DNA of 41,684 nucleotides from Pseudomonadota bacterium (GTDB taxonomy: Bacteria; Pseudomonadota; Gammaproteobacteria; Steroidobacterales; Woeseiaceae). Numbering within the stretch: position 1 is the stretch's first letter; every line of letters starts with the position of its first letter. The position numbers and the translations under genes were made by a program. Positions 9,268 to 31,890 of this stretch are shown piece after piece. The stretch lies in the NCBI GenBank assembly GCA_027621915.1, contig JAQCAD010000029.1:1-41684 (forward strand), read 5' to 3'. The notes beneath the pieces were generated by a model, which was not told the origin of the DNA, searched no databases, and worked only from the letters and a program-made list of their open reading frames with translations.

Positions 9268-9293
9268 TCAAAGACTGGGCGCCGACTCGATGC

Positions 9294-9362: not shown

Positions 9363-9410
9363 TGTGACGCGGTAATCGGACTATCGTAGAGGACATTGTT
9401 GTCGTCAACT

Positions 9411-9518
9411 TTATTTGGTTTTTCCTGTTGGTTTGTTGATGGCGGTGGTGCGTCGTTTTCGCATGGACTCGCCCTTCAACACCAGTCGGTAACTGTTGTG
9501 TACGAGCCGATTGCAGAA
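9411..9518 (-). pseudogene. istB 3' fragment (IS21-family)
   Basis: Read on the minus strand, the segment encodes CNRLVHNSYRLVLKGESMRK followed by a basic tail and TAA. This is the highly conserved C-terminus of the IS21 helper ATPase IstB (R-L-V-H-x-S-Y-R-x-x-L-K-G-E-S-M-R-K). Upstream of the Cys, at about 9518, similarity stops abruptly, so all of the ATPase core is missing. Confidence 0.75.
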
Positions 9519-9665
9519 TTGATTTGTAATCAGTGTACTTGCGATTCGATTCCGTATGCTGGCACCAATTTTTCCCGGCACATTCTAACGAAATGAACTC
9601 CCTCCAACCGTTTATTGAAAATTGGCTTCGCCAGTACAGCGGTGCCTTTCATGAATTTGCCCGAC

Positions 9666-10730
9666 TTACCTTTTTCCGGTACGAATCGCGACAGATTCTG
9701 GTCGTAAATGCGTGTAGCGACTCAGCGTTCCCCAGCTGTCATGCAAAGTGAACTGTTGGACTTCCACAATCGAGTATCCTGCTTCAAAAAGCCTGCTGGT
9801 TGCCTCGTGTCGCAAGTCATGAAAGTGCAAATCGTCTATCCCGAGCACTCGGCACGCTCGAGTAAAAGCAGCACCTATCGTCTTGGGTTCAAATGGGAAT
9901 ACTCGATCCTGATCGTGATTTTGTCGATGTACAATTTCCCATGCTTCATCTGAATATTTGAATCGTCGAAATAATTCTCTGTCTGACGGATGTTTGATAT
10001 TTCGAACAATACCCGTTCGGGCTTTTTGATCATTGTCGTCGATCAATAGACCTGTGATTTCACTTTGTCGGCGCGCCGAATGAATTGCGAACCACATGAT
10101 GTCACCCATAGGAATGCTTGAGCGTCGTTTTTCCTTCTTCTGAAAATGCTCTGACAGTGCTGAAAGTTCCGACTTTGATGGCCGGCGAGACCTCGCTTTT
10201 GATTTCGCGACTAATTTCTCGGTCCTGAGAACCTCATACGCGTCGTCGATCGCCGTAAGGTCGATAGGTACATTCCATGCGGCGCGTGCATATCGCAGGA
10301 TGATCCGTAACCAGACGAGGTCGTTGTTTACGGTTGAAGCGCCGGCCCCGGACCTCCGGCGAGCTCGCACATGTTCGATCAAGTCAGAAGACTTTATATC
10401 GGCTACGTCGAAGTTTGCGAGATTCGTTTTTTCCAGAAATTTGATGTGCGCCGATTTGCTGCGACCCATCGGGCGAATATCGGAGACTTCCTTGCGATAT
10501 TTCAATAGAATTTTATGGAGTGGACCACTTAGTGTGAGTTGATTGCGTTTAGGAAGGGCATCTGCCTTGCTAAGCTTGTTCTCCCGCCGCGTTGCCCAAT
10601 CCGTAGCGAGGCGACGCTTGTCAAAGGTCCTGGATTCGCGGTGCACCAGGCGGCCATCCCGTTTGATTCGTACCTCGGCGAGGTAGGCCATGCTGCCGTC
10701 ACGACGTTGGCGTGGTCGAATTGTGGCCAT
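9666..10730 (-). CDS. dusA-associated tyrosine integrase
   Basis: This 354-aa site-specific integrase starts MATIRPRQRRDGSMAYLAEV, an arm-DNA-binding type N-terminus. A core-binding region spans about residues 55-160. The catalytic domain shows Arg in HSARRQSEITGLL, HxxR in FHDLRHEATSRLFEAG, His in FTLHDSWG and Tyr in LSRYTHLRPE. It lies 154 bp from dusA and points away from it, the position described for integrases of dusA islands. I chose the start at 10730 because GGAG precedes it by 6 nt; an upstream start at 10778 would add an unlikely Cys/Phe-rich peptide. Only short direct repeats separate it from the core site. Confidence 0.9.
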   Translation of the reverse strand: MATIRPRQRRDGSMAYLAEVRIKRDGRLVHRESRTFDKRRLATDWATRRENKLSKADALPKRNQLTLSGPLHKILLKYRKEVSDIRPMGRSKSAHIKFLEKTNLANFDVADIKSSDLIEHVRARRRSGAGASTVNNDLVWLRIILRYARAAWNVPIDLTAIDDAYEVLRTEKLVAKSKARSRRPSKSELSALSEHFQKKEKRRSSIPMGDIMWFAIHSARRQSEITGLLIDDNDQKARTGIVRNIKHPSDRELFRRFKYSDEAWEIVHRQNHDQDRVFPFEPKTIGAAFTRACRVLGIDDLHFHDLRHEATSRLFEAGYSIVEVQQFTLHDSWGTLSRYTHLRPESVAIRTGKR

Positions 10731-10755
10731 TATTACTCCAAACAGGTAAAAGAAA

Positions 10756-10792
10756 GTGCGACATGGGCAGTGCGACACGGTGCGACATGGGC
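10756..10792. repeat. three direct repeats beside the integrase (arm-site candidates)
   Basis: GTGCGACATGGGC occurs at 10756 and 10780, with a shorter copy GTGCGACAC at 10770. They lie between the integrase start and the att core in dusA. Such short repeats at this place are the usual form of integrase arm-binding sites, though no binding is shown. Confidence 0.5.
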
Positions 10793-10884
10793 GATATTTG
10801 ACACAAAATGGACGAAAATAAGTACAGAATGAGTTGAAAATAGTACAATGTAACTAGTTGAATAATCTACAGAAAGAGCGATAA

Positions 10885-11865
10885 ATGACAGACTACACAA
10901 GACCCGCGAGAGTGTCAATTGCCCCCATGATGGATTGGACGGATCGCCATTGTCGTTACTTCATGCGGCTCCTGAGTCCGTCAGTGCACTTGTATACGGA
11001 AATGGTTACCGCCGCAGCACTGAAACACGGCGATGCGCAGAAACTGCTCCAGTTTGAGTTGTGCGAACACCCGATCGCGTTGCAGATCGGCGGCAGCGAT
11101 CCAAAATTAATGGCTGAAGCAGCAAAACTTGGTGCAGATAAAGGCTATGACGAGATCAATATCAACGTCGGCTGCCCAAGTGATCGCGTGCAGAGCGGCC
11201 AGTTCGGTGCCTGCCTGATGTCACAGCCGGACCTGGTTGCGGCGTGCGTGGGTGCGATGAAATCTGTCGTCGACATTCCGGTCACCATCAAGACCCGAAT
11301 AGGTATCGATGATCATGATGATTACGGGTTCCTTCGGAATTTTGTTATCGCGAATGTTGAGGCCGGTTGCAGCACGTTCATCGTACATGCGCGCAAAGCG
11401 ATACTCGCCGGCCTGAGCCCTAAAGAAAACCGTTTGATTCCGCCACTAAATTACGATCGCGTCTATCGCCTGAAACAGGAAATGCCTGAGATCACGATCA
11501 TTCTCAATGGTGGTGTAGCTTCGATCGCCGACTGTCAGCGTCACCTTGAACAGGTCGACGGCGTAATGGTTGGCAGGCAGGCCTATCAGCAGCCCTGGTT
11601 TCTCACGGAACTGGAGCAGGCGTTCGGCAACGGCAATGCAATGCCGAGTCGCCACGCTATCGTGCGACAAATGCTGCCGTACATCGAAAAGGAAATGGCG
11701 CTCGGGGCCGAGCTCAAACACATTACCCGGCACATGCTTGGGTTGTATGCAGGGCAACCCGGTGCCAGAGCATGGCGGCGTTATCTGAGTGAGCACGCTC
11801 ATCGAATCGGTGGCGGGATCGATGTTCTCGAAACGGCGCTGACAAAATTGCCGCAAGCGGCCTGA
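10885..11865 (+). CDS. dusA: tRNA-dihydrouridine(20/20a) synthase DusA
   Basis: This 326-aa flavoenzyme reduces uridine to dihydrouridine in the D-loop of tRNA. It shows the family core: SIAPMMDWTDRHCRYFMRLL at residues 11-30, YTEMVTAAAL, ALQIGGSDP, the active-site Cys97 in NVGCPSDRVQSGQFGACLM, and VTIKTRIGIDD for FMN and tRNA binding. DusA-specific segments (HARKAILAGLSPKENR, HITRHMLGLYAGQPGAR) distinguish it from DusB and DusC. The proposed island attachment core covers codons 12-20, so the first part of the gene may have come from the island while preserving the reading frame. It appears intact. Confidence 0.95.
   Translation: MTDYTRPARVSIAPMMDWTDRHCRYFMRLLSPSVHLYTEMVTAAALKHGDAQKLLQFELCEHPIALQIGGSDPKLMAEAAKLGADKGYDEININVGCPSDRVQSGQFGACLMSQPDLVAACVGAMKSVVDIPVTIKTRIGIDDHDDYGFLRNFVIANVEAGCSTFIVHARKAILAGLSPKENRLIPPLNYDRVYRLKQEMPEITIILNGGVASIADCQRHLEQVDGVMVGRQAYQQPWFLTELEQAFGNGNAMPSRHAIVRQMLPYIEKEMALGAELKHITRHMLGLYAGQPGARAWRRYLSEHAHRIGGGIDVLETALTKLPQAA
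10918..10943 (+). other. attachment core in the 5' end of dusA (putative)
   Basis: This segment encodes IAPMMDWTD and matches 4327-4352 with three mismatches in 26 bases. It lies 188 bp from the integrase start. The dusA 5' end is a known integration hotspot for tyrosine-recombinase islands. Confidence 0.65.
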
Positions 11866-15990: not shown

Positions 15991-17028
15991 TTGAAACAGC
16001 GGAATCTGACCGGGCGATGGAATGCCGGACTGTGTGCGCAGTTCGCGCTGGCGTCCGTCTTCTTTGCCTGCAGTGGTGCGGCGTTTGCAACAGGCACGGC
16101 CGCAGGTACCGTCGTCGACAATGTCGCGACCGTCAATTTCGATATTGGCGGTGTGAACGGCACGCTGGATTCCAACGTCGTGAGCCTGACCGTCCTCGAG
16201 CGCCTTGACGTCGTTGTCACGCTGCAAAGTCCACAAATCGTGGTCGCTTCGAATGAAGTAAACCGGTCGTTGCTATTTACAGTGACGAACAGCGGCAACG
16301 GCAACGACGAATTCGAACTTTTCATTGACAGCGCGCTGGTCGGAGACGATTTCGATCCGCTTCCAGCGACCCCTGCAATCTATTTCGATACAGATGCGAG
16401 TGGCGACTTCACCGTTGGCGATGTTGCGTACGCACCCGCCGGAAACAATCCACAACTGGCCGCCGAAAACAATCCACAACTGGCCGCCGATGAATCCATA
16501 GACATCCTGCTCGTTAACGACATGCCTTTCGGACTTGTCAGCGGCTGGCTTGGTCGCAGTCAACTGACAGCGACCTCGACATCAGGAACAGGCCTGCCCG
16601 GCGCGACTCTGCCAGGAATGGGGGATGGCGGCCTGGATGCCGTTCTTGGTGCCAGCGGCGGCACTGCATCCGTATTCGGTGAATATCTGGCCGCCGACGT
16701 CGAGATCAACATTCAAAAGTCGGTGGTCGTAAGCAATGCGACCGGCGGTACCGATCCCGTGACCGGCGCGACGCTTACCTACACCATCACGCTCGAAGTG
16801 ACCAACGGCGGAACTGCGACCACCAGCGTTTTCTCCGACCTCATTCCAGCATCCAGCACATTCGTTGCCAACAGCATCTTGCTGAATGGCGGCAACCTCA
16901 CAGATGTCATCGACGTTGACGCCGGCGAGCTCGATATGAGCGGCGCGCCAACTGTTGTTGTTCGCCTGGGAGATCTCACTCTGGCCGATGGCGTACAGAC
17001 CATCGAGTTCCAGGTAACGATCGATTGA
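15991..17028 (+). CDS. exported DUF11-type protein 1
   Basis: This 345-aa protein has a signal peptide (residues 1-33, hydrophobic core LCAQFALASVFFACSGAAFA). The mature start ATGTAAGTVVDNVATVNFDI resembles those of the third and fourth genes of this locus. The C-terminal third (about 240-345) is a DUF11-like Ig domain (VSNATGGTDPVTGATLTYTI ... SDLIPASSTFVANSILLNGG). Such domains stack to build surface stalks. A 24-bp in-frame duplication gives NNPQLAAE twice. The start is TTG, 8 nt after AAGGG; no better start is upstream. Function is unknown; I infer a cell-surface or periplasmic role with the giant protein downstream. Confidence 0.75.
   Translation: MKQRNLTGRWNAGLCAQFALASVFFACSGAAFATGTAAGTVVDNVATVNFDIGGVNGTLDSNVVSLTVLERLDVVVTLQSPQIVVASNEVNRSLLFTVTNSGNGNDEFELFIDSALVGDDFDPLPATPAIYFDTDASGDFTVGDVAYAPAGNNPQLAAENNPQLAADESIDILLVNDMPFGLVSGWLGRSQLTATSTSGTGLPGATLPGMGDGGLDAVLGASGGTASVFGEYLAADVEINIQKSVVVSNATGGTDPVTGATLTYTITLEVTNGGTATTSVFSDLIPASSTFVANSILLNGGNLTDVIDVDAGELDMSGAPTVVVRLGDLTLADGVQTIEFQVTID
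16444..16491 (+). repeat. 24-bp in-frame tandem duplication
   Basis: Two copies (16444-16467 and 16468-16491) differ only in the last base. They encode NNPQLAAE and NNPQLAAD. Such a unit can expand or contract by slippage without changing frame. Confidence 0.85.
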
Positions 17029-17074
17029 TCACATTAACAACGTTTGATTCAGAGCGATATCAAAAGGAACCGAC

Positions 17075-17560
17075 ATGAAAACACAAGTGAAATTGACATT
17101 GATAGCTTCCGGCTTTTTCGCGATTGCGGCTGTTGCACAGGATAAAGGTCACCTGAACGTGCGCACCGTCGTGCAGAAAGAGGAAGTCGTCGTAACCGAC
17201 GCAGGTGAAACAAAGCGAAGCCTCGTTCCGGCCGACACGGTGGTACCCGGTGATGACGTCGTCTACACGATTACGTTTACGAACATCAGTAGCGAAGCCG
17301 CCGACAACGTTGTCATCACCAATCCGATTTCAGAAAACCTGACATACGTCGAGGGTTCCGCATTTGGTCCCGGTACGGTCATCGAATTTTCTGTGGATAA
17401 CGGGCAAAGCTTCGCGGCACCCGAGGCGCTGATGGTTGCGGTGGATGACGAAGTGCGACCGGCCGAGCCGGAGGATTTCACCCATGTCCGCTGGACGATG
17501 CAAAGCGAACTGCAATCCGGTGCGCAGGGAATGGCGCGCTTCAAGGCACGACTGAATTGA
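17075..17560 (+). CDS. exported DUF11-type protein 2
   Basis: This 161-aa protein has a signal peptide (MKTQVKLTLIASGFFAIAAVA) followed by a single DUF11-like domain. Family features are VPADTVVPGDDVVYTITFTN, EAADNVVITNPISENLTYVE and FTHVRWTMQSELQSGAQG. AAAGGAACC provides a ribosome-binding site 6-8 nt before ATG. It follows the first DUF11 gene by 46 nt and is probably in the same operon. With only one domain it could be a subunit that associates with the larger proteins. I know no experimentally assigned function. Confidence 0.8.
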   Translation: MKTQVKLTLIASGFFAIAAVAQDKGHLNVRTVVQKEEVVVTDAGETKRSLVPADTVVPGDDVVYTITFTNISSEAADNVVITNPISENLTYVEGSAFGPGTVIEFSVDNGQSFAAPEALMVAVDDEVRPAEPEDFTHVRWTMQSELQSGAQGMARFKARLN

Positions 17561-17696
17561 CTAATCGATCGCGAAGACGATCGGCACGTACGGGGAAGGC
17601 AGAGCAAGTCGCGAGACGTGCTTTGCACTGCAACACCTGTGCCGGGCAAGCACTGCCGGTGGTTTGATATTTTTTGAAAACACATGGAGTACCGTG

Positions 17697-18840
17697 ATGA
17701 AAAACTTTAGATGGAAAAACAGCTTCCTCGCGAGGCTGGGATTGACAGCGGGAGTGTTGCTGCTAACACAGCACGCATTCGCCGCCGGAACGACTGCAGG
17801 AACCGACATCAACAATCTGGCGACGGTGAGCTATGAAGTTGGTACGGTCCTGCAGCCTGTTGTCGAATCGGCGCCTGGTGTTGGAAACGACGTCCCGGGC
17901 GTGGGCAATGGCACGATTACGACTTTCATGGTTGATAACCGCGTCGATTTTTCGCTGACGCAGGTCGGTTCAACCAACACGATCGTGACGCCGGGCCAGA
18001 CCGACGCTTATCTTGAGTTCCTGCTGACCAACGATGGTAACTTGCCGCAGGACTTCAACCTGGCACTTATTCCGCTTGCCTCCGGCGATGGTCCGGTCAA
18101 CACGACATTTACGGACACAGATGTCGAGCTGGCCAATTTGCGTATCCGGGTCGGCAATGGCGGCGGCGTGCCGGTACTCACTGATCTGCCCTACGGTGAT
18201 GAGATTGCTGTCGGCGCGACCGTGACTGTTTATGTCTTCGGTGATGCCGATCTTCTGCTGGGACTGGTTAACAACGACGTTGCCAACTATGAGTTGACGG
18301 CTACTGTTGCGGCGGCCGGTACGGCATTGACCCTGGGCACTGATCTCGTTGATGACGTTGGCAATCCGGATACAGCTGCTGTTGAAGTTGTGTTCGCGGA
18401 AGGCGGCGCTATCGGTGACGGTGTCCTCGAGGTGAGAGATGGCTTCGTTGTTTTCGGCAGCCGGGCTGACTGTCAGCAAGGCGGCCACGGTTATTTCGGA
18501 TCCGTTCAATCTCACGACGAACCCGAAAGCAATTCCGGGTGCAGTTGTCGAGTACACGATTACGATCACCAACAATGGCGGCGCTAACGCTGACAGTGTG
18601 TCGATCTCTGATGACCTTGACACGGATATTGTTTTCATAACGGACTTCTATGCCGGTCAGGATCTGCTGGTCGTCAATGATGGCGTTACGATTACACCGT
18701 GCAACGCGGATGCAGCGGATGCTGACACCGATGGTTGCGCACTGGATGGCCAGAACCTGCGAGTCGGCAATAGCAATCTCCCGATTACCGTAGTAGCCGG
18801 AAGAGTGCTGGTTGTTACATACAGGGTATCGATCCCCTAA
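17697..18840 (+). pseudogene. exported DUF11-type protein 3, frameshifted
   Basis: The first frame (17697 to about 18460) encodes a signal peptide (GLTAGVLLLTQHAFA) and AGTTAGTDINNLATVSYEVG, the N-terminal motif of this locus, then a beta-rich region. The second frame (about 18450 to 18840, shifted by one base) encodes LTVSKAATVISDPFN and a DUF11 domain (GAVVEYTITITNNGGANADS ... VAGRVLVVTYRVSIP). The two parts together are what the family predicts for one protein of about 380 aa. One surplus base, perhaps in gttgtttt at 18448-18455, would explain it. GGAG 7 nt before the ATG at 17697 supports that start. It may be a mutation, phase variation or an assembly error. Confidence 0.75.
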
Positions 18841-18888
18841 CGGAGTCGTTAGGCGACAGACCCGATCACGGCGCTAAAGAAATTGCAC

Positions 18889-21800
18889 ATGGCTTTGAGA
18901 CGAGCGTTCACCAGGTCAGGTGAACAGTCTCTTGCTCCTGTCCGGGCTGGCCCTCATGGGCCGGCCCGGCTTAGCCATGTGCGATACATATCCTGGGGGA
19001 AACATTTGTTTCCCCCGCGGTACGTATGGCATCGAGTGAGGTCACTGGTAACGGGCTCAACCGCAGCACTATTCCTGGGGCTGATTGCCCCGATATCCGT
19101 CTTCGCCAGCCCACCTGGCACGGTGATATCCAACCAGGCGCAACTTGACTACCTGAACTCGGTCGCCGTTCCGACAACGGCGCTCAGTAATGTTGTCGAT
19201 GTAGTGACAACAGTTACCCGCAGTCCGTCAATGGTCCAGTTTACGCGTGTACTCCCGGTTGCAACTGGCATTTACCAGGAATCAGTGGGTCCATCCGCCT
19301 GCCTCCAGGGCGGTGCTTTCGTCACGCTTGCAGATCCGATGATCATGGGTGGTGGTGTGATTGATCCGACACTCACCCACGAAGTCAGTGGGACGAACGC
19401 TTACAACCTGGGTGAAACGTTCTTCATTCGCCTGACGGACTCGGACCAGAACGTCGATGCGGCGGTGATCAACTATGCGGCTGTCAATATCGCTCACCCC
19501 GATTCTGGTGATTTCGAAACGATACAGTTGAGTGAAACAGGCATAAATACCGGTGTGTTCGCCGGATATGTTCCATCAGCGAACGGGCCGGCGATATCGG
19601 GCGACTGCGTATTGCAAGGAACACCGGACAGTGTGGTTGTCGTGACGTACACGGATCCCGCCGACACGACCGATGGAGCACAGTCGTCGGCATTGCTGGA
19701 TCCCGTGAGTGTGGTATTCGAATCGGCAACGGGCGCACCAATTGATGGGGTGCTGATTGAACTGGTCGATGCGATTACCGGGCTGCCGGCCACGGTGTAT
19801 GGCAACGATGGCGTCAGCATTTTTCCGTCAAGCATCACCAGCGGTGGCACTGAAACTGACAGCTCAGGTGCGACCTATGTATTTGGCACAGGTGAATACC
19901 GATTCCCTGTCATTCCGGCAGGTAACTATCAAATTGTTGTATCACCGCCAGGGTCCTATTCGGCGCCTTCCATAGTTTCAATAGCCACGCTGCAGGCGTT
20001 GCCTGGCGCGCCTTACGCTTTGGGCCCGGCGTCTTTCGGTAACACATTTACACATGCCGGGCCGCTATCTGCAGAATTCGATATTCCCGTCGACCCACGC
20101 GACGGCGCATTGTTTTTGCGAAAAACAACGATGACGACGATTGCCTCGCCGGGTGACTTCGTTCGTTATGAATTAAGCCTGGAAAATGGCGCGTCCTCTG
20201 GAGTTGCGTCAAACGCCTCCATTGTTGATCAGCTGCCAGCCGGCGTGAGGTACGTCCCTGATTCCGCAACGAGAAATGGTTCGGCAACACCAAATCCGAC
20301 GATTGGACCGGACCTGCGAACACTTGAATTTCCAATTGGTGATCTGAATGCCGGTGAGCGTGCCGTCATCACCTACGTCGTCGAAATTACGGGTGGAAAG
20401 AGGAATCAGGAACTGGTCAATACGGCAACGGCATTTGCGGATGCCGGGCTGGCGTCCAACGTTTCCGACGCGCGCATTCGCCTGACCGAAGACCTGTTCC
20501 GATCGACGAGTACCGTTATTGGCCGCGTTGTCGAAGGTCACTGCTCTGCTGCGACTTTCGCAGAAGACCTGGGTGTCGGCGGAATTCGCATGTACCTCGA
20601 AGACGGCCGTTTTGCGGTGTCGGATGAATCCGGTCGATTCCATTTCGAAGGTCTGGAGCCGGGCACACATGTCGTGCAAATCGATCCCGAATCCGTGCCG
20701 AACTATTTCGAGATTATTGGGTGCGATACGGCGCCGCAATTTTCCGGTCGTGCCGATTCGCAGTTCGCAAGGACGAGCCGTGGAAGTTTGACGCGGGCGG
20801 ACTTCTATATGCGCCGCAAACTTCCGCCTGAAGGCCTCGTCGATATTGAAATGAAAAATATGGGCACTGACAGCTCCGAAGGAGTCGGGTATGTGGTCAT
20901 TGTTAACGGCGAAGGCAATATCCGTATTCGAAACCTCAATGTTGTGGTTTTGCTGCCAGACGGTGTTGGTTATTTGCCAGGTACGTTGACCGTCGCAGGT
21001 CAAAAAGTCGGCGAGCCCCGCATCGCCGGACCGACGCTCACTATCGATATTCCGGAGCAGTTCGGCGACTGGTCGCGCGAGATTCGCTTTGAAGGGCAAA
21101 TTTCCCCTGAAACCAATGGGGAGCTGACCACGAAGGCTTTCGCGAAGTTCGACTCCCCGATCGAGGCAGGGCAGAAGACGCCGATCGTCGAGACGAAGTT
21201 GCTTCGTGAGCGAGCAGTCATCAAGAACGAAGGATACGTGCTCAACCTGAATTTCAGCGTCTTGTCCGCCGAGCTTTCACCAGATGACCAAATGCAACTG
21301 GATACGCTCGTCCGTGGCTGGGAAGGCGTCAGTGAAATCAGTATCGCTGCAATTGGTCACAGCGACAGCCAGCAAATATCTCCGGCGAATCGGGGCGTGT
21401 TCGCCGATAACTATGTCCTGTCACATTCGCGCGCGCTCGCGGCGGCGAACTACGTCGGGCGGGCACTGAGTGTCAGCGACGACAGAATTACCGTACAAGG
21501 TCGGGGCCCGGACGATCCGGTAGAGAGCAACGCAACTGCCAGCGGGCGGCAGGCGAATCGACGCGTTGAGCTGATATTGTCGGGCAAACGCCCGACGAAA
21601 CCCTCATTTCTTGAGGTGACACAGGCAGCGTCCGGCGTCGTCATTGCCCAGACACAGGGAGCTGTGCCTGGTGCCGAAGAAGAATTACTGAGAAATCAGC
21701 TGGCTAAATCCACTGACGATATTAGTGGATTGCCGTCGTCGCAGGTCGAACCCGCTTTCACCGGCCTCAAGCCGGGGCTCGAATTGCTTTTGCCAGGTGC

Positions 21801-24800
21801 GGACTACAATCCGGCAATTCCGAGTACCAAAATTTCCATCAAACACGGACTTCAGCAAGAACTTGACGTTTCATTGAACGGTCGGCCAGTGAACCCGCTG
21901 AATTATGACGGTGTCGAAGTCAGCGCCAACCAGACTTTTGCGGTATCGCGCTGGAAAGGTGTGGATCTCGTTGATGGCGCGAACGAAATCAGTGTCGAGG
22001 TCGTAAATCCTGACGGATCCGTTGCGACAATACTCAAGCGCACAATCAATTACTCGGGAACTGCTGTGCGCGGGGAAATCGTGCCGGAACTGTCTGTGCT
22101 GGTTGCTGATGGCAAGACACGTCCGGTGATTGCCGTAAGGCTTTTCGATCGCCAGGGCATGGAATCGCGGCAAGGCGCCGTCGGCGCGTTCCGGGTAGGT
22201 GCCCCTTATCGCTCGTGGTGGGAAGTCGAAGACAGTCGCAAAAACGAGATCGTTGCGGTTGGTAATCGTGAACCGATCTATCGTGTCGGCCCAGGCGGAA
22301 TCGCGCTCATCGAACTCGAGCCAACGACCCAGGCAGGAGAAGCCGAGATAACATTGAATTTTGACAACCAGCGCCAGCAGGAATTGCGTACTTGGCTCCG
22401 CTCGCAACCACGCGACTGGATACTGGTTGGATTTGCCGAGGGTACGGTTGGCTATAACACACTGAAAGAAAATATGACTGCTGCGTTGGACGCTGGTTTT
22501 GAAGACGAGTATTTCGACGAGGGCCGGGTCGCTTTTTTCGCCAAGGGTCAGGTTAAAGGTGATTATCTCCTGACGGTCGCATACGACTCGGATCGTGAGC
22601 GAAGCGAGAATCGCAACAGGTTCCAGACAGTCGTGGACCCGAATGCCTATTACCCGCTGTACGGAGACAGGAGCGAGCAACGATTTGACGCGCCAAGCCA
22701 GCGCAAGTTGTACCTGAAGCTGGAAAAGCGGCAGTTCTACGCACTCTTTGGCGACTTTGATACGGGAATGTCGGTCACCGAGCTCGCGCGTTATGAGCGT
22801 CGCTTCAATGGCCTCAAAGCCGGGTTCCAGGGCGAAAATGTTGGCTACACGGCGTTTGCGACCGAAACCAATCAGTCGTTTGTGCGCGATGAACTGCGCG
22901 GCGACGGGACGTCGGGCCTTTATCGACTAAGTCGTGCACCCATTATTGCGAACAGCGAGCAGGTCAGAATCGAGGTTCGTGATCGATTCGATACAGGAAG
23001 AATTCTGAGCAGCTCAACGTTGAGCCGGTTCCTGGATTACAACCTCGATACGCTGGACGGTACGCTTTTCTTCAAACAGCCGGTCCAAAGTCGTGACCCC
23101 GCCTTCAACCCCGTTTTCATCGTTGTCGAATACGAAAGCGAATCCAGTGCGAACGAAGAAATCATTGCCGGCGGCCGGGCATCGATGCGTACAAGTAACG
23201 ATCAGGTCGAGGTTGGCGTTAGCCATATCAATGAAGGACAACAGGGTGCGGAGTCGGACCTGACGGGAATGGACCTCCGCTGGCAGGTAAATCCCGAAAC
23301 ATTGCTGAAGGCTGAAATTGCGTCGAGCAATCGTACAACAGGCGGTGTTGATTCCAGCGGCAGCGCATATTCGGTGAGCCTGGAGCATCAGGGCGAGAAG
23401 GTCGACATCCGCGCCTACATGAAGGATGTGGATGAAGGTTTCGGCCTGGGGCAACAGAGCAATGCCGAAAAACGTATTCGAAAAGTTGGCATAGACGGCC
23501 GTGCCAGGATTTCAGAGCGTTTCTACTTCGACGGTGACGCAAGCTGGCAGCAGAACCTCGAAACAGAAGCGATACGAAATGCTGCGAGGGCTCAACTGCG
23601 CTATGAGAATGACGGGTTTACGGCATCGACCGGACTCGTTCACGCGTCCGATGAATTTTCTGACGGCGAGACACGAGAAAGTAACCTGGCGGATGTCGGA
23701 GCCAGCAAGAAACTTGGCAAGGTGACTTTGCGAGGCAACGGCAGTTTTGAACTGAGCGGCGAGGCAGATAACGTTGATTTCCCGACCACGGTCGTCATTG
23801 GCGCCGACTATAGAATCAGGCCGGGCGTGGATTTGTTTGCTGAATATGAACAGGCCAGCGGCCCGCTCATTGACACGTCGATGACCCGGGTAGGCGTCAA
23901 GGCATCTCCGTGGAGTCGCGCCCAGATAAATTCCTCGGTATCGAGCGAGGAGACCGAGTACGGGCCTCGTTTGTTCTCAAATGTCGGGCTCATCCAGGGA
24001 TTCCAGCTGAACGAGCACTGGGCGCTGGATTTCGGTCTCGATCAGACGAAAACGATGGTGGATTCTACGATCAGGCAGTTCGATCCGGCGCGAGAACTTG
24101 TCTCCGGTTCACTAAACGACGACTTTATTGCCGTATCAGTAGGTGCGGCCTATGCAGCGGATCTGTGGAGCGCCAATAGCCGCATTGAGTACCGCGATTC
24201 AGATTCTGAAGCGCGCAAGACATTGATCTCGGGCTGGTATCGCGAACCGACCATGGGTCATGGTTTGTCTGCCGGATTAACACTGTTCACATCCGAGAAT
24301 ATCAATGGAACCAGTAGCAATGCGACTGACCTCAAGTTCGGTTGGGCGTGGCGCAAGGCGGACAGCCGCTGGTCCTTTCTTGATCGCATCGACCTGGTCT
24401 TCGAAGATACGAACCTTCTGACGCAGCGGGAAGAAAGCCAGCGATTGATCAATAATTTCAACGCGAACCTTCGTGTGAGCGCGCGAACTCAGTTGTCGCT
24501 GCAGTATGCCTTCAAATATGTGAATAGCATGTTCGATAGCCAGGAATATTCGGGCTACACGGATCTTGTTGGCGTCGACTTTCGTCGCGGTTTCAAGAGT
24601 AAATGGGATTGGGGTACGCACGCGAGCGTCTATCACTCTTATGCGTCAGAAATTTTTGATTACGGCATCGGCCTCGACGTCGGCTACAACGTGCGGGAAA
24701 ATCTTTGGGTCACGGTCGGTTACAACGCCGCCGGGTTCCACGACAGCGACTTCACTTCCGCCCGGTATACGGCACAGGGGCCATATTTGCAGATTTCGAT

Positions 24801-24849
24801 GAAAGCCGATCAGCACATGCTGAAAATGGTCGCCGGGCAGAGTCGCTAG
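18889..24849 (+). CDS. giant DUF11/OmpA-like outer-membrane protein
   Basis: This protein of about 1986 aa has a delayed signal-like segment (about residues 52-73, TGSTAALFLGLIAPISVFA), then SPPGTVISNQAQLDYLNS, the N-terminal motif shared with the upstream genes. In order follow beta-rich domains, a DUF11 domain (about 410-530), an SdrD-B-like fold (about 545-600, with VSDESGRFHFEGLEPGTHVV), an OmpA-like domain (about 780-900, IAAIGHSDSQQ and ANRRVEL) that should bind peptidoglycan, Ig-like parts, and a C-terminal 750-residue region of alternating beta-strands like an outer-membrane barrel. The first 50 residues are Arg-rich, coincide with three hairpins, and may be untranslated; a GTG at 19036 is an alternative start. 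Confidence 0.8.
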   Translation: MALRRAFTRSGEQSLAPVRAGPHGPARLSHVRYISWGKHLFPPRYVWHRVRSLVTGSTAALFLGLIAPISVFASPPGTVISNQAQLDYLNSVAVPTTALSNVVDVVTTVTRSPSMVQFTRVLPVATGIYQESVGPSACLQGGAFVTLADPMIMGGGVIDPTLTHEVSGTNAYNLGETFFIRLTDSDQNVDAAVINYAAVNIAHPDSGDFETIQLSETGINTGVFAGYVPSANGPAISGDCVLQGTPDSVVVVTYTDPADTTDGAQSSALLDPVSVVFESATGAPIDGVLIELVDAITGLPATVYGNDGVSIFPSSITSGGTETDSSGATYVFGTGEYRFPVIPAGNYQIVVSPPGSYSAPSIVSIATLQALPGAPYALGPASFGNTFTHAGPLSAEFDIPVDPRDGALFLRKTTMTTIASPGDFVRYELSLENGASSGVASNASIVDQLPAGVRYVPDSATRNGSATPNPTIGPDLRTLEFPIGDLNAGERAVITYVVEITGGKRNQELVNTATAFADAGLASNVSDARIRLTEDLFRSTSTVIGRVVEGHCSAATFAEDLGVGGIRMYLEDGRFAVSDESGRFHFEGLEPGTHVVQIDPESVPNYFEIIGCDTAPQFSGRADSQFARTSRGSLTRADFYMRRKLPPEGLVDIEMKNMGTDSSEGVGYVVIVNGEGNIRIRNLNVVVLLPDGVGYLPGTLTVAGQKVGEPRIAGPTLTIDIPEQFGDWSREIRFEGQISPETNGELTTKAFAKFDSPIEAGQKTPIVETKLLRERAVIKNEGYVLNLNFSVLSAELSPDDQMQLDTLVRGWEGVSEISIAAIGHSDSQQISPANRGVFADNYVLSHSRALAAANYVGRALSVSDDRITVQGRGPDDPVESNATASGRQANRRVELILSGKRPTKPSFLEVTQAASGVVIAQTQGAVPGAEEELLRNQLAKSTDDISGLPSSQVEPAFTGLKPGLELLLPGADYNPAIPSTKISIKHGLQQELDVSLNGRPVNPLNYDGVEVSANQTFAVSRWKGVDLVDGANEISVEVVNPDGSVATILKRTINYSGTAVRGEIVPELSVLVADGKTRPVIAVRLFDRQGMESRQGAVGAFRVGAPYRSWWEVEDSRKNEIVAVGNREPIYRVGPGGIALIELEPTTQAGEAEITLNFDNQRQQELRTWLRSQPRDWILVGFAEGTVGYNTLKENMTAALDAGFEDEYFDEGRVAFFAKGQVKGDYLLTVAYDSDRERSENRNRFQTVVDPNAYYPLYGDRSEQRFDAPSQRKLYLKLEKRQFYALFGDFDTGMSVTELARYERRFNGLKAGFQGENVGYTAFATETNQSFVRDELRGDGTSGLYRLSRAPIIANSEQVRIEVRDRFDTGRILSSSTLSRFLDYNLDTLDGTLFFKQPVQSRDPAFNPVFIVVEYESESSANEEIIAGGRASMRTSNDQVEVGVSHINEGQQGAESDLTGMDLRWQVNPETLLKAEIASSNRTTGGVDSSGSAYSVSLEHQGEKVDIRAYMKDVDEGFGLGQQSNAEKRIRKVGIDGRARISERFYFDGDASWQQNLETEAIRNAARAQLRYENDGFTASTGLVHASDEFSDGETRESNLADVGASKKLGKVTLRGNGSFELSGEADNVDFPTTVVIGADYRIRPGVDLFAEYEQASGPLIDTSMTRVGVKASPWSRAQINSSVSSEETEYGPRLFSNVGLIQGFQLNEHWALDFGLDQTKTMVDSTIRQFDPARELVSGSLNDDFIAVSVGAAYAADLWSANSRIEYRDSDSEARKTLISGWYREPTMGHGLSAGLTLFTSENINGTSSNATDLKFGWAWRKADSRWSFLDRIDLVFEDTNLLTQREESQRLINNFNANLRVSARTQLSLQYAFKYVNSMFDSQEYSGYTDLVGVDFRRGFKSKWDWGTHASVYHSYASEIFDYGIGLDVGYNVRENLWVTVGYNAAGFHDSDFTSARYTAQGPYLQISMKADQHMLKMVAGQSR
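18906..19016 (+). promoter_or_regulatory. three consecutive hairpins at the 5' end of the giant gene
   Basis: Hairpin A pairs GTTCACC (18906-18912) with GGTGAAC (18919-18925). Hairpin B pairs CCGGGCTGGCCC (18942-18953) with GGGCCGGCCCGG (18958-18969), 12 pairs in RNA including one G-U. Hairpin C pairs GGGGGAAAC (18995-19003) with GTTTCCCCC (19008-19016). This fits a structured mRNA leader better than coding sequence, and is compatible with initiation at 19036. I match it to no known riboswitch class. Confidence 0.5.
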
Positions 24850-27636: not shown

Positions 27637-27714
27637 CGTTGCTGTAATATAGCGCTTCTTATCGGCTTGACGTTTTTATCGCGGTCGCAAACCGCAATCC
27701 CGATCGATTTCTGC

Positions 27715-28419
27715 ATGGACCAGGCAGTGAGCAACGAAAAAATCCTCATAGTTGAAGACGAACAGCCAATTCGCGAGATGATCGCATTCCACCTTTCACG
27801 GGCGGGTTACGCGACGCTTGAAGCGGAAGACTGCCGACAGGCTCGTCAGCTCCTGGTCGACGAGAGACCGGCGCTGGCCCTGATCGACTGGATGTTACCC
27901 GACATGAGCGGGCTCGAATTGACCCGGCTGTTGAAGCGAGACGAGGAATATGACGACCTTTCGATCATCATGCTGACCGCCCGGGCGGACGAGCATGACA
28001 AAGTCGTCGGGCTGGAGGGAGGCGCCGACGATTACATCACGAAGCCTTTCTCGCCAAGAGAACTGATCGCCAGAATCCAGGCGGTTCTGCGACGATCAGG
28101 AGCCTCGGGCGAAGCTACGACGGCGGCAGGCGACATCGTGCTCGATGCAGCAGCCCATCGCGTCACGGTCAATGGCGATGTTGTCCGCCTTGGGCCCACC
28201 GAGTACCGTCTGCTCCAATACCTGATGACGCATGCGGACAGGGTGTACAGCCGCAGCCAGTTGCTTGATCGTGTCTGGGGCGCGAACGTCTACGTTGAGG
28301 AAAGGACCGTTGACGTGCATGTGCGAAGATTGCGAAAAGCGCTGACGCCGTACGGTGTTGAGCGTCACGTTCAGACCGTTCGTGGCGCCGGCTACCGCTT
28401 CTCGACCAAAGAAGCCTAG
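27715..28419 (+). CDS. phoB: phosphate regulon response regulator PhoB
   Basis: This 234-aa OmpR/PhoB-family regulator has a receiver domain at residues 8-125, with acidic pair Glu14-Asp15, phosphoacceptor Asp58 in LIDWMLPDMSG and conserved Lys109 in YITKPFSPREL. The C-terminal winged helix (about 135-232) ends VDVHVRRLRKALTPYGVERH and VRGAGYRF. When phosphorylated by PhoR it binds Pho boxes and activates phosphate-starvation genes. A longer TTG start at 27667 exists, but the ATG at 27715 gives the standard length. It is followed by phoR 40 nt downstream. Confidence 0.95.
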   Translation: MDQAVSNEKILIVEDEQPIREMIAFHLSRAGYATLEAEDCRQARQLLVDERPALALIDWMLPDMSGLELTRLLKRDEEYDDLSIIMLTARADEHDKVVGLEGGADDYITKPFSPRELIARIQAVLRRSGASGEATTAAGDIVLDAAAHRVTVNGDVVRLGPTEYRLLQYLMTHADRVYSRSQLLDRVWGANVYVEERTVDVHVRRLRKALTPYGVERHVQTVRGAGYRFSTKEA

Positions 28420-28459
28420 GAACCAGATTGTCGATTCTTGAGATGACCGAGGCCTGACT

Positions 28460-29779
28460 TTGCAAAAACTTCGGCAAAAAGTGATTCTTGGCCACCTGGC
28501 GCTGCTCGCTGGCGGTGCCCTGGTCGGCTCGCTCTACGACCAGGTCCTGATCGGGCTGCTCGTCGCAGCATTGCTGGGACTTGGCTGGCATGTCCGGCAG
28601 CTGCTGAGATTCGAACAGGCATTGAGAGACAGGCATTTCGGCAGCCTCCGCTACGGCGACGGCATCTGGTCACAACTCTATTCCCGCTTCAACTACCAGC
28701 GATCGCAAAGCAAGCAATATAAGAAGAGCTATCGTCAACTGTTGAAAGAAGTTCGCAAATCGACGAACGCAATGCCCGACGGCGGCATTATCCTGAATCG
28801 CGATTTCGAGATCGTCCTTTGTAACAAGGCCGCGCAACGCCTCGCGGGCTTCAGGCGTCATCAGGACAGAGGCCATCGCGTTGACAACATCCTGCGCGAC
28901 CCGGCGTTCGGCAATTACCTGAACGCAGGTGTATTCGATAAAGGCATCGAAATCCGGTCCCCAACAAGGGAAGGAGGATGGTTGCTCTGCAGAATCGTTC
29001 CCTACGGTGCGGACCAATTGCTTTTATTGATTCAGGACATCACGGAACGCCGTCGTTTGGCGGCGATGCGGCGTGACTTCGTGGCAAACGCTTCCCACGA
29101 ATTACGTTCGCCGCTGACCGTGGTGAGTGGCTACCTGGATACGCTGGCCGAAGAAGAGGATATCCCTGCGCATTGGCAAAAACCGTTGATGCAGATGAAG
29201 ACGCAGGCGAGCCGCATGAATAAAATTGTGGCCGAGTTACTGGAATTATCCCGCCTTGAGGGCGCGGGTGCGGCACCAACGGATGAAATTGTCGATATCT
29301 GCGGACTCCTTGCAGCAGCGAAAAAATCGCTGGCTGGCCGAAACGATATCCCGAAAATTGATATCCAGTGCAATTCTCGGGCGCAGCTACACGGCAGCAC
29401 GGCCGAAATCGAATCCGTTATCGTGAACCTGATGTCAAACGCCATTCGGCATACACCCGTCGAAGGCCAGGTCACTATGACCTGGGCAAGTGACAGGGAT
29501 GGCGCGAATTTGTCTGTAACAGATACCGGCATTGGCATTGAACCGGAGCACATTCCGCGTTTGACTGAGCGGTTCTTTCGCGTCGATCCAGGGCGGAGTC
29601 GTGATGATGGCGGTGTGGGACTGGGGCTGGCTATCGTCAAGCATGTGCTCGAAAGACATGAAGCGAAGCTCCAGATCGAGAGTGTTCCCGGCAGCGGCAG
29701 CCGTTTCGCTTGTCATTTCCCGCCCGGGCGAATTGTTGCCGCGGAGCCCGTTCCAATCGCTGGCAGCAGCAGCATCTAA
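28460..29779 (+). CDS. phoR: phosphate regulon sensor histidine kinase PhoR
   Basis: This 439-aa kinase has two N-terminal membrane helices (about residues 9-43), a linker and PAS domain (about 100-195, GGIILNRDFEIVLCNKAAQR), HisKA with phospho-acceptor His213 in FVANASHELRSPLTVVSGYL, and HATPase_c with NLMSNAIRHTP, DTGIGIEPEHIPRLTERFF and GGVGLGLAIVK. It lacks a large periplasmic sensor, as in E. coli PhoR, which senses through the Pst transporter and PhoU. The start is TTG with GAGG about 8 nt upstream; it gives the expected hydrophobic N-terminus. Confidence 0.94.
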   Translation: MQKLRQKVILGHLALLAGGALVGSLYDQVLIGLLVAALLGLGWHVRQLLRFEQALRDRHFGSLRYGDGIWSQLYSRFNYQRSQSKQYKKSYRQLLKEVRKSTNAMPDGGIILNRDFEIVLCNKAAQRLAGFRRHQDRGHRVDNILRDPAFGNYLNAGVFDKGIEIRSPTREGGWLLCRIVPYGADQLLLLIQDITERRRLAAMRRDFVANASHELRSPLTVVSGYLDTLAEEEDIPAHWQKPLMQMKTQASRMNKIVAELLELSRLEGAGAAPTDEIVDICGLLAAAKKSLAGRNDIPKIDIQCNSRAQLHGSTAEIESVIVNLMSNAIRHTPVEGQVTMTWASDRDGANLSVTDTGIGIEPEHIPRLTERFFRVDPGRSRDDGGVGLGLAIVKHVLERHEAKLQIESVPGSGSRFACHFPPGRIVAAEPVPIAGSSSI

Positions 29780-29861
29780 ACTCCAGGCATTGCAGTATCC
29801 GCATTCAGAAGCGTTGCTCGCTGCGCTGGTTGCTCCTGTGTCGAATGCCTGTCGATTCGGT

Positions 29862-29894
29862 TTGTCACATAACTGCAATAAAAGCGTCACTATG
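29862..29894 (+). promoter_or_regulatory. Pho box upstream of the porin gene
   Basis: Three consecutive 11-bp units are TTGTCACATAA, CTGCAATAAAA and GCGTCACTATG. Exact 11-bp spacing and AT-rich 4-bp ends fit PhoB binding. The porin ATG is about 110 bp downstream. Confidence 0.68.
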
Positions 29895-30001
29895 ATGCAA
29901 CATGTGGTTTGTAACGTGCGCGACAAATAAACGTCATGCGTCTGCAACAAATAGGTCATGTGAACGATTTGTTTCGGCGAACCGGTTCAAAGGAGAAGTT
30001 A

Positions 30002-31090
30002 ATGAAAACAGATAGATATGCGCTTGCGATCGTCATTCTGACCTGCGCATGCGCGGGTCCTGGTTCCGCGACCGCCATTGCCCAGGAGAGTTGGACCGAT
30101 TCGATTACGGTCAACGGAGATTTAAGGCTTCGTTATGACGGGATTCGTGAAGAGGGTGATCCGGATCGGGATCGCGCGCGCTTTCGCGCACGGTTCGGCC
30201 TGTCAGCAGATGTCAATGAAAACGTCGAAGCCGTGATCCAACTGGCCTCCGGCGGTGACAACCCTGTGTCTACTAACCAATCGTTCGACGATGGGTTTGA
30301 TCGCAAGGACATCGGCCTGGACCTGGCGTATCTTGACTGGACGCCGAATGAAAATACTCACGTTTACGGCGGCAAAATAAAGAACCCGTTTCATCGTGTG
30401 GGCGGTCACGCACTGGTGTGGGACAGCGACCTGAATCCAGAAGGCGTTGCCGTGAAATATGCATCCGGAGGATTCTTCGGTACTGCGGGTCTCATGTTTG
30501 TTGAAGAGCGGTCCTCGACCGACGACTCGCTGCTAATGGCGCAGCAGGGCGGTTACGAATTTGAAGTTTCCGATGGAGTAAAACTGAAGTCCGGCATCGG
30601 CTATTTCAGCTACACAGATACGATCGGCAACGAACCTTTTTACGACGGTCAGGCACGAGGCAATAGCGTTGACGCTAATGGAGACCTGATTCTTGAGTAC
30701 ACGGAACTCGAATTCTTCGCCGAGCTTGACATGAAACTTGGTAACCTGCCTTTCAAAGTTTTTGCAGAATTCGTGCAAAATACCGACGCCAACGTTGAAG
30801 ATAGTGGATACGCGTTCGGCGCAGCCATCGGCAAAGCCGGCGATCCGGGCACGTGGCAGGCGTCCTGGACGTACCAGGATCTCGAGGCTGATGCGGTCAT
30901 TTCAACTTTCACTGACTCCGACTTTGGCGGCGGTGGTACGGACAACAAAGGTCATGTCCTCAAGGGAAGATATGCGCTTCAGGATAACTGGGCGCTGGCT
31001 GGCCAACTCTATATCAATGAAGTCGACCATTTCGCCGGCAATCCGCACGACTATGATCGTGTTTTGCTTGACCTCGAATTCAAGTTCTAG
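30002..31090 (+). CDS. putative outer-membrane porin, phosphate-regulated
   Basis: This 362-aa protein has a signal peptide (MKTDRYALAIVILTCACAGP ... AIAQ) and alternating beta-strands rich in aromatic residues. It opens with TVNGDLRLRYDGIREEGDPD and RARFRARFGLSADVNEN, and ends LLDLEFKF with a C-terminal Phe as outer-membrane barrels do. It resembles the putative porin families in Pho regulons of marine bacteria. AAAGGAG precedes the ATG at 30002. The Pho box array upstream and the position between phoR and phoU suggest it admits phosphate or phosphorylated compounds. Specificity is inferred only from context. Confidence 0.82.
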   Translation: MKTDRYALAIVILTCACAGPGSATAIAQESWTDSITVNGDLRLRYDGIREEGDPDRDRARFRARFGLSADVNENVEAVIQLASGGDNPVSTNQSFDDGFDRKDIGLDLAYLDWTPNENTHVYGGKIKNPFHRVGGHALVWDSDLNPEGVAVKYASGGFFGTAGLMFVEERSSTDDSLLMAQQGGYEFEVSDGVKLKSGIGYFSYTDTIGNEPFYDGQARGNSVDANGDLILEYTELEFFAELDMKLGNLPFKVFAEFVQNTDANVEDSGYAFGAAIGKAGDPGTWQASWTYQDLEADAVISTFTDSDFGGGGTDNKGHVLKGRYALQDNWALAGQLYINEVDHFAGNPHDYDRVLLDLEFKF

Positions 31091-31110
31091 AATTTATCTG
31101 TGGTCTCTGA

Positions 31111-31132
31111 CGTTCATGGTATCGTCACAATA
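31111..31132 (+). promoter_or_regulatory. possible Pho box upstream of phoU
   Basis: Two 11-bp units, CGTTCATGGTA and TCGTCACAATA, lie 45-66 bp before the phoU ATG. They fit the half-sites seen at the other three sites less well. Confidence 0.42.
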
Positions 31133-31176
31133 ATCAGGCATTCTCGGCCGATAGCTCGGCTGATGCGAGCGAGCAT

Positions 31177-31890
31177 ATGGAAGCAGGCGACATAACCGAT
31201 CACATTTCCAGGCGGTTCAACAAGGATCTCGAAGATCTTCGAAGCGCCGTGCTGACGATGGGTGGACTGGTCGAGACGCAGTTATCCAAGGCCATTGCTG
31301 CCATCGTAAAAGGTGACAGCGCACTTGGACTCGAAGTCGCGAACGATGACTACAAGGTCAATGCACTCGAGGTCAATATTGACGAGGAGTGCAGTCGCAT
31401 TCTGGCGACCCGCGCGCCGGCGGCCGGTGATCTGCGGCTGATCGTTGCGATAATCAAAACGATTACGGATCTTGAGCGCATTGGTGACGAGGCCGAAAAG
31501 ATCGGATTTCTGGCATCGCAACTGGCCGTAATGGATCGTCCTTCGGATTCCTATCGCGAGCTGAAGAACCTTGGCAACCATGTCCTGCAGATGCTGCACG
31601 ACACCATGAATGCGTTCGCCCGTCTGGATGTCAAAGCATCGATCGCGGTCGTCCGGGAAGATGAGGAAGTTGATGCGGAATATGACGCGATTAACCGGCA
31701 GGGAATCACGTTCATGATGGAGGATCCGCAAAACATCAAGCGCGTCATGAACGTCACCTGGGTCGCGAGAGCGCTGGAAAGAATTGGCGATCACTCCAAA
31801 AATATATGCGAATACGTCATTTATATGGTCGAAGGTCGTAATGTCAGGCACACAGACATCATAAAATCGGCGATACATTCATCGGACTAA
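31177..31890 (+). CDS. phoU: phosphate-specific transport regulator PhoU
   Basis: This 237-aa all-helical protein consists of two PhoU repeats. Each has the acidic metal-binding type motif: DLRLIVAIIKTITDLERIGD with EAEKIG in the first repeat and NVTWVARALERIGDHSKNI in the second. PhoU links the PstSCAB transporter to PhoR and shuts the regulon down when phosphate is plentiful. Here it is not last in the pst operon, as in E. coli, but sits between the porin and dsbB. The ATG at 31177 matches the usual family N-terminus (HISRRFNKDLEDLRSAVLTM). Confidence 0.95.
   Translation: MEAGDITDHISRRFNKDLEDLRSAVLTMGGLVETQLSKAIAAIVKGDSALGLEVANDDYKVNALEVNIDEECSRILATRAPAAGDLRLIVAIIKTITDLERIGDEAEKIGFLASQLAVMDRPSDSYRELKNLGNHVLQMLHDTMNAFARLDVKASIAVVREDEEVDAEYDAINRQGITFMMEDPQNIKRVMNVTWVARALERIGDHSKNICEYVIYMVEGRNVRHTDIIKSAIHSSD

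Follow-up and report, generated by a model that had tools for sequence, protein, structure and literature searches.

The 41,684-nucleotide stretch analysed here (the window), contig JAQCAD010000029.1 of assembly GCA_027621915.1 from a gammaproteobacterium of the family Woeseiaceae, contains an operon of four consecutive same-strand genes, here named g1 to g4, whose products carry DUF11 domains. A preliminary description, made from the sequence alone, had read all four as exported proteins, and each of them does carry a signal sequence, as judged by eye. It had also pointed to an N-terminal motif common to mature g1, g3 and g4; this motif was confirmed, is kept in relatives and is lacking in g2. 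The operon is flanked by a PEP (phosphoenolpyruvate)-carboxykinase-like gene on one side and a helicase-like gene on the other, both named by eye.

All features of the operon lie on the + strand, and the terms donor and acceptor anticipate the pairing argued for below. The first gene, g1 (15991–17028), is an open reading frame of 345 amino acids which, from profiles and an AlphaFold2 (AF2) model, would encode an exported linker subunit with an N-terminal donor hairpin, a middle immunoglobulin (Ig)-like domain and a C-terminal truncated DUF11 domain. Its hairpin was placed by alignment after the signal peptide (16090–16200, with Asn44 at 16120–16122), and its acceptor, a DUF11 domain minus the last two strands, by profile and alignment at 16696–17025 (Lys243 at 16717–16719, Asp283 at 16837–16839). 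By the same means, g2 (17075–17560, 161 amino acids) is read as an exported single DUF11 acceptor without a donor, in which an Asn replaces the catalytic Asp (17321–17323). The third gene, g3 (17697–18840, the start being approximate), is a paralogue of g1 with donor, middle domain and acceptor, identified from its reading frames and by profile comparison, in which the two families match over their full length (probability 99.9%). Its donor hairpin was aligned to 17784–17900 (Asn at 17814–17816) and its truncated DUF11 acceptor, by profile and alignment, to 18466–18837 (Lys at 18478–18480, Asp at 18610–18612).

The preliminary description had counted four consecutive genes. The operon is real, but g3 is split in the window into two overlapping frames (17664–18587 and 18439–18840) by one extra base relative to genomes G028 and G025, located at 18440–18453. 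In 35 of 36 family homologues g3 is a single frame, and on this ground a programmed frameshift was rejected; the exception, locus L080, comes from an assembly whose g4 is also broken.

The last gene, g4, encodes a giant outer-membrane protein. Its listed frame of 1988 amino acids begins at 18883, and a GTG at 19036 is the likelier start because it yields a normal-looking signal peptide, so that the gene would span 19036–24849. A donor hairpin was aligned to 19108–19224 (Asn84 of the 1988-residue frame), and an internal, complete DUF11 domain was placed by profile and alignment at 20116–20472 (Lys414, Asp449 and Asn513). The DUF11, SdrD-B-like, OmpA-like and barrel regions first described in the giant are borne out, with DUF11 (residues 412–530) and an OmpA domain of the peptidoglycan-binding type (residues 791–893; 21253–21561, by profile) above the profile cut-off; CarboxypepD_reg (305–362) and SdrD_B (563–601) fall below it. 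The barrel lies in the C-terminal part (23110–24801). The AF2 model of residues 905–1988 shows about 30 long strands at low confidence (predicted local distance difference test, pLDDT, 67.6; predicted TM-score, pTM, 0.43), and many of the 50 matches listed by Foldseek for this part are outer-membrane barrels, the list also containing glycoside hydrolases and some other folds. Deinococcus SlpA and the SprA barrels of type IX secretion systems (T9SS) stand among the top matches, with TM-scores of at most 0.20 and no match to either by sequence at E-values up to 1, and no membership in either group is claimed. A SprA-like reading, suggested by a resemblance, was rejected on these low scores and on the absence of any SprA sequence match when the profile of the giant was compared with the PDB at E-values up to 1. 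Because the fold matches are outer-membrane barrels in general and their TM-scores are low, only the designation of large barrel is kept. Separately, a search for defence systems returned only MotB/OmpA-type matches, all from the giant, and that reading was dropped. A paralogous giant (about 30–38% identity, frames of about 1700 residues) was also seen, for example in locus L074 (contig C320 of genome G079), with DUF11 proteins roughly 2200 residues long close by.

Conservation was examined in a family set of 107 Woeseiaceae genomes, from which 40 loci were fetched. The grouping is more than chance: all four genes keep the same order in 34 of the 40 loci, some with cuts at contig ends or split genes. 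The other six comprise two fetched for their fusion proteins (L073 and L074), three partial loci (L078, L082 and L083) and L077 of genome G027, an exception in which g2 stands alone between the usual flanking genes, in what looks like a loss. Matches to g1 and to g2 were each found in 47 of the 107 genomes, the g1 match in G079 being weak and inside a different long protein; both genes occur together in 46 genomes, each occurs alone in one, and 59 have neither. Among the matches listed, the giant is matched (E up to 1e-10) in 72 of the 107 genomes, many of these being the paralogue at about 30–38% identity, and an orthologous giant was counted by reading in 49. On the same footing, g2 and g4 occur together in 45 genomes, g2 alone in two, g4 alone in four and neither in 56. 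P-values computed for these co-occurrences take no account of common descent or of gaps in the assemblies. Of the four genomes with a giant and no g2 match, three (G053, G057 and G096) have matches that begin at a contig end and the fourth (G024) has a short broken fragment; among the matches listed, therefore, no complete orthologous giant stands in a genome without g2.

The operon extends beyond the family. A search of 274 gammaproteobacterial genomes with the g1 profile gave matches in 24, including two family members, and one locus was taken from each of 15 of the remaining 22. At least one middle gene accompanies g2 and the giant in 14 of these 15 loci (the giant is in pieces in L146, g1 is in two frames in L148 and L156 is cut), and the fifteenth, L145, runs off its contig. 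No separate g1 is present in L149–L152, and the middle protein has about 880–1030 residues in L153, L155 and L157. Within the limits of the fetched flanks, the 40 family loci have the helicase gene in 27 cases, TsaB in 20, PhoB in 16 and PEP carboxykinase in 11; none of the four was found in any of the 15 loci outside the family.

The small proteins end within a domain. Against the DUF11 family PF01345 (cut-off 24.6 bits), g2 scores 29.9, the C-terminal part of g3 30.7 and g4 43.7, with only 15.1 for g1, which reaches 27 against TIGR01451 (cut-off 24). In DUF11 a strand pattern leads up to the two closing strands; g1 and g2 end directly past this pattern (in g1, ...VVFQVTID), and g3 ends at the same point or a few residues beyond. 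The DUF11 domains of g1, g2 and g3 thus lack the last two strands, and the internal domain of g4 is complete. The stop of g1 is nearly constant, 62 residues past the Asp in 29 of 33 sequences (58, 89, 90 and 90 in the rest).

In their mature form, g1, g3 and g4 in turn all start with the pattern G-(T/A)-x-x-x-N-x-A-x-(V/L)-x-(F/Y)...SN; mature g1 starts with AGTPAGTVIDN or a similar sequence, and a simple cleavage rule leaves ten residues ahead of the donor Asn in 25 of 33 g1 and 33 of 34 g3 sequences. When profiles of these three N-termini were compared with an external DUF11 profile of 132 columns, the best alignments of g1, g3 and g4 all fell on the last strand (columns 92–99, 91–100 and 88–100, respectively). 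The external profile was built from 24 domains of other families, which also served as the control; they were drawn from 29 DUF11 loci, of which L087 and L112 were unused and L089, L090 and L100 were dropped for a stop. The common N-terminus resembles the two closing strands of a DUF11 domain. As g2 has no hairpin and the giant no terminal acceptor, the operon would hold three donors (g1, g3 and g4) and three acceptors (g1, g2 and g3).

Natural fusions connect the two halves. In the 1681-residue protein of L073, a DUF11 domain ends with ...VTFAVTVD-AGVLAGVVIDNDATANFDDSGG... and runs straight into a g1-type middle domain. The same order of DUF11 end, hairpin and g1-type middle domain is found in the 1828-residue protein of L069, which runs off the fetched stretch, and within an 878-residue protein of L157, where a second, weak g1-type match lies in the right place; the order in L155 and L153 appears similar by eye. 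Since the junction resembles the start of mature g1, the fusions of L073 and L069 look like two operon subunits joined at the very point where the operon is cut.

A hairpin profile built from the internal DUF11 domains of the giants and from pieces of fusion and tip-like proteins was passed by 33 of 36 g1, 25 of 35 g3 and 30 of 34 g4 N-termini, and by none of the 37 g2 N-termini or the 36 internal g1 pieces used as controls. A pass was defined as a score above the 99th percentile of the shuffles of the same sequence. Joining the g1, g3 and g4 donors to g1 acceptors raised the DUF11 score by medians of 5.4, 4.3 and 2.3 bits, against changes of −1.8, −0.7 and −1.3 bits with shuffling. With g2 acceptors the gains were 3.1, 2.9 and 0.3 bits, the g4 donor contributing least.

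The residues of the bond formed in this domain family are divided in the same way. In a 2025 survey, DUF11 was renamed CLIPPER and a structure was presented (9IFR) with an intramolecular bond between Lys715 and Asn806, presumably catalysed by Asp748, and with a final strand (beta 9) that comes after Asn806 (PMC12617251). According to the survey, the bond residues are not universally conserved in DUF11 domains (PMC12617251); among the 24 external domains, the full triad was found in seven. In the operon, Lys and Asp stand in the acceptors of g1 and g3, and the Asn stands in each of the three donors (g1, g3 and g4). Within the family, g1 keeps Lys and Asp in 36 of 36 sequences and the donor Asn in 34 (one Gly and one row at a contig end), g3 keeps Lys in 36, Asp in 35 (the gap being the split gene) and Asn in 36 of 36, and the giant keeps its donor Asn in 33 of 34 (one Ser). 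L075 was left out of this last count, its N-terminus reading differently with a similar Asn pattern. Outside the family, all three residues are present in 11 of 11 g3 sequences, and g1 keeps Lys in seven of eight and Asp in eight of eight. In g2, the Asp position holds Asn in 37 of 37 family members, with Lys in 30 of 37; outside the family it holds Asn in ten of 15, Asp in two and other residues in three, with Lys in four of 15. The protein would be the only acceptor of the operon to keep the groove and lack the catalytic Asp.

Because the acceptors of g1 and g3 keep the Lys and Asp, and the donors the Asn, of the CLIPPER bond, an intermolecular covalent Lys–Asn link at these two acceptors is predicted with fair confidence. 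The joint at the g2 acceptor would be non-covalent, since g2 lacks the Asp.

A number of results weigh against this interpretation. The alignments of the g1, g3 and g4 N-termini to the external DUF11 profile span only 8–13 columns, with probabilities of 5.2, 1.2 and 0.5%, respectively. The training set of the stronger hairpin profile includes the natural fusions, and about two of its fifteen extra pieces are probably not DUF11. When the hairpin profile was built from the external DUF11 domains only, 12 of 36 g1, six of 35 g3 and ten of 34 g4 sequences passed (controls, 0 of 37 and 1 of 36); with the DUF11 domains of the giants only, the passes fell to two of 36, none of 35 and two of 34 (controls, 0 of 37 and 0 of 36). 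The acceptors of g3 lose DUF11 score when joined to the donors of g1, g3 and g4 (−1.7, −1.2 and −3.4 bits). Outside the family, the donor Asn of g1 is kept in five of eight sequences (one Ser and two gaps), and the Asp-to-Asn spacing of joined g1 is about 73 residues, against 51–59 in the 14 of the 24 intact domains that were measured, a difference ascribed to a loop insertion. As the profile scores are partly weak, the identity of the hairpin is drawn mainly from three things: the fusions, the common place of the alignments on the DUF11 profile and the pattern of residues. An incomplete Ig-like domain with a complementary N-terminus on the next subunit is thus suggested by the sequences, weakly so where the profiles are independent. 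The truncated C-terminal DUF11 domain, the matching N-terminus and the fusions that join both parts make it probable that each subunit would donate a two-strand hairpin to the preceding one.

The fold of the acceptor was approached through the AF2 model of mature g1 (mean pLDDT 84.7, pTM 0.64). Its C-terminal domain (residues 205–312) matches domains of the CnaA type in RspB (Z 8.2), SpaD (7.5) and ACE (7.4), with scores graded as middling by the search tool. Integrins and alpha-2-macroglobulins score against it as well, as Ig-like folds do. No match to the g1 profile was found among PDB sequences at E-values up to 1. The fused domain matched 9IFR only at an E-value of 0.11, with antifreeze proteins ranked higher, by chance as is assumed.

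Proteins that could serve as tips were sought by comparing the acceptor end of the L073 fusion with the 107 family genomes. Matches were obtained in 47 genomes, mostly at a distance from the operon and in frames of about 480–900 residues, the longest having 1681; in three of these only g3 itself was matched, leaving 44 genomes with tip-like proteins, with weak matches in G043, G078 and G102. Tip-like proteins and g2 occur together in 40 genomes, g2 alone in seven, tip-like proteins alone in four and neither in 56. In the 15 tip-like proteins read, the end strand is similar in all, the Lys is present in 14 (not in L180) and the Asp in 13 (Glu in L180 and L183). Pfam searches on ten of them gave H_lectin in L178 and Reelin_subrepeat-B in L185, in L177 and weakly in L186, with no match in three. 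One acceptor-only partner has a start that presumably resembles DUF4347. The genome of the window has one tip-like protein of 547 residues on contig C9, and its contig C27 carries a fragment of a different type. From their architecture, separate acceptor-only proteins are inferred to be tips.

The conserved operon, the complementary ends, the natural fusions and the conserved residues lead to a model in which pairing between chains, the bond, the order of the subunits, a location at the surface and a role in adhesion are predicted. The acceptors, at the C-termini of g1, g2, g3 and the tip-like proteins, would be CnaA-type beta sandwiches minus the last two strands, and the donors, at the mature N-termini of g1, g3 and g4, would be the missing two-strand hairpin. 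Insertion of the hairpin of the next subunit would complete each acceptor domain; joints at g1 and g3 would then seal themselves by a Lys–Asn isopeptide bond, and the joint at g2 would stay non-covalent. The giant, whose donor lies opposite a large outer-membrane barrel and an OmpA domain, is a plausible base, and acceptor-only proteins with a binding-type domain would form the tips.

A multi-subunit structure anchored by the giant had been suggested at the outset, and it gains from the conserved operon, the complementary ends, the barrel of about 30 strands and the OmpA domain; the identity of the shared motif, and with it a mechanism, had been missed. The suggestion that the small proteins are stalk or tip subunits holds in part. 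The products of g1 and g3 suit linkers or a stalk, but g2, being an acceptor only and without the catalytic Asp, is better classed as a cap or assembly factor, and the separate unlinked proteins are better candidates for tips. That the operon encodes a surface assembly of secreted subunits joined through split DUF11/CLIPPER domains is considered likely, and a surface chain with tips is a somewhat less secure but still favoured reading. The complete picture is tentative and stands slightly short of an even chance: a self-gluing Gram-negative appendage with CLIPPER-hairpin exchange, Lys–Asn locks, a giant barrel base and interchangeable acceptor-only tips encoded across the genome, in which g2 would be a reversible hairpin chaperone or a terminator.

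Among the alternatives, the one that survives best, although unlikely, is that the split-domain chain lies in the periplasm and ties the outer-membrane barrel to the cell wall, instead of forming an external fibre. The OmpA domain of the giant precedes its barrel, which points to a periplasmic location for part of this protein and tells against the surface reading, and the operon shows no obvious gene devoted to export. A periplasmic chain is harder to reconcile with the H_lectin or Reelin-type domains of some acceptor-only partners, with the DUF4347-like start of another and with the giants of G106 and G369, in which an alignment gap takes the place of the OmpA stretch, even if in G369 the opposite strand carries an OmpA-like gene close by.

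It is improbable that these are ordinary surface proteins with merely shortened DUF11 domains and the generic N-terminus of secreted proteins, grouped in an operon without physical linkage. Proteins with DUF11 domains are common and variable, and the weakness of the independent hairpin profiles would fit such a view, but the constant stop of g1, the near-invariance of the split triad compared with seven of 24 in other DUF11 domains and the fusions that join both parts argue against it. Weakest, and improbable as well, is self-completion, in which the hairpin of g1 or g3 would fold onto its own C-terminal domain as a circular permutation to give monomers and only g2 or the tips would pair with g4: both halves are carried by g1 and g3 and the AF2 monomer of g1 is compatible with it (confidence of about 61–81 at residues 11–40), but where natural fusions carry a g1-type hairpin, it forms part of the DUF11 domain ahead of it and not of its own later one, hairpin and acceptor stand at opposite ends of the middle domain in sequence order, and pairing between chains would be needed anyway because g2 and the tips are read without a hairpin and g4 without a terminal acceptor.

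The chain of split domains favoured here resembles several known systems. In chaperone–usher pili (FimH, FimG, FimF and FimA, with FimC and FimD), an incomplete Ig-like domain is completed by the N-terminus of the next subunit, two-domain tips lack a donor, and the base lies in the outer membrane. In the proposed model the operon would share the completing N-terminus, the donor-less tips and the outer-membrane base, whereas its donor would be a two-strand hairpin and is predicted to become covalently bound; g2 as a hairpin chaperone would be the mirror image of the strand-supplying PapD-type chaperone. Profile scans found no usher or PapD-like chaperone among the operon proteins and no PapD_N match in the genome of the window, and chaperone–usher assembly was rejected on these grounds. 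The single usher-like match in this genome lies on another contig and has an internal stop. Sortase assembly was likewise set aside, as the subunits end at or shortly past the last acceptor strand with no sorting motif visible by eye. A sortase gene was observed in this Gram-negative genome (G000:C38:2533-2880), on a contig other than that of the operon.

The SpyTag/SpyCatcher pair was engineered from a CnaB domain into a Lys acceptor and a strand with the partner residue. The operon would similarly divide an isopeptide domain between a Lys acceptor and a partner strand; unlike the engineered pair, it is natural, of the CnaA type, and has both ends on one subunit, so that chains are possible. 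The archaeal thread of Saci_0406 combines donor strand complementation with a proposed intermolecular isopeptide bond, which would tie the Asp24 alpha-amino group to Asn57 at a distance of two subunits, and a putative cap protein is encoded beside it (PMC9715654). This combination is that of the proposed chain; the thread differs in being archaeal, with no outer membrane, and in the available part of the text no DUF domain is mentioned (PMC9715654). Saci_0406 is absent from the listed fold matches of the g1 model. The CLIPPER domains themselves share with the operon the domain family, the Lys, Asp and Asn positions and the occurrence in stalks of surface proteins (PMC12617251). The published bonds form within one chain (PMC12617251); the operon divides the residues between one protein, with Lys and Asp, and the next, with Asn.

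Between g3 and g4, folding, covariation and a model search identified a conserved structured RNA (18864–19026, +), a probable leader of the giant gene. Two overlapping stretches fold far better than their shuffles (z −5.8 and −6.7). Across 20 sequences, made up of the window and 19 long-form relatives, compensatory change on both sides was seen in 17 of the 25 pairs. Pairing cells make up 93.3% of the alignment, compared with 79.9% after shuffling and 39–54% after sliding. Six relatives with shorter forms (L051, L056, L057, L059, L064 and L065) and the divergent loci were left out of the alignment, and L060 out of the model. The model of 163 positions matched 38 of the 107 genomes, 37 of them at the g3–g4 junction and one weakly elsewhere (G027), further listed matches being the opposite strand of the same places; 19 other loci (six divergent family loci and 13 from outside) gave one weak match. 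No Rfam family was matched by this RNA. As a guess, the RNA may control how many subunits are made for each base.

Elsewhere in the window, an IS3-type transposase-like gene in overlapping frames was seen by eye at 96–1077 (−), with an ALIL pseudoknot (RF01497) at 961–1077 within it. A tyrosine-recombinase-like gene adjoins a dusA-like gene (9666–11865, by eye), a recombinase beside dusA being a known kind of integration site, and the region from about 5000 to 10778 may be an integrated element. A GNAT-type acetyltransferase at 7148–7801 (−), named by eye, presumably resembles TacT-like toxins. Genes like phoB–phoR, phoU and pst for phosphate follow the operon at 27667–38431 (by eye).

Donor-strand exchange, isopeptide domains and their proposed combination in an archaeal filament are already known (PMC9715654). 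The literature searched, which excluded subscription papers and bioRxiv preprints, yielded no naturally split CLIPPER domain that links separate proteins to one another on a barrel base. If the proposal is true, it would describe a type of bacterial appendage in which a single split domain serves both donor-strand exchange and the autocatalytic formation of isopeptide bonds, assign a role to small DUF11 proteins so far without one, and supply many natural donor/acceptor pairs for protein ligation. The Woeseiaceae are a marine-sediment group described as mostly surface-attached (PMC12175321), and the finding would bear on how they may hold on to surfaces.

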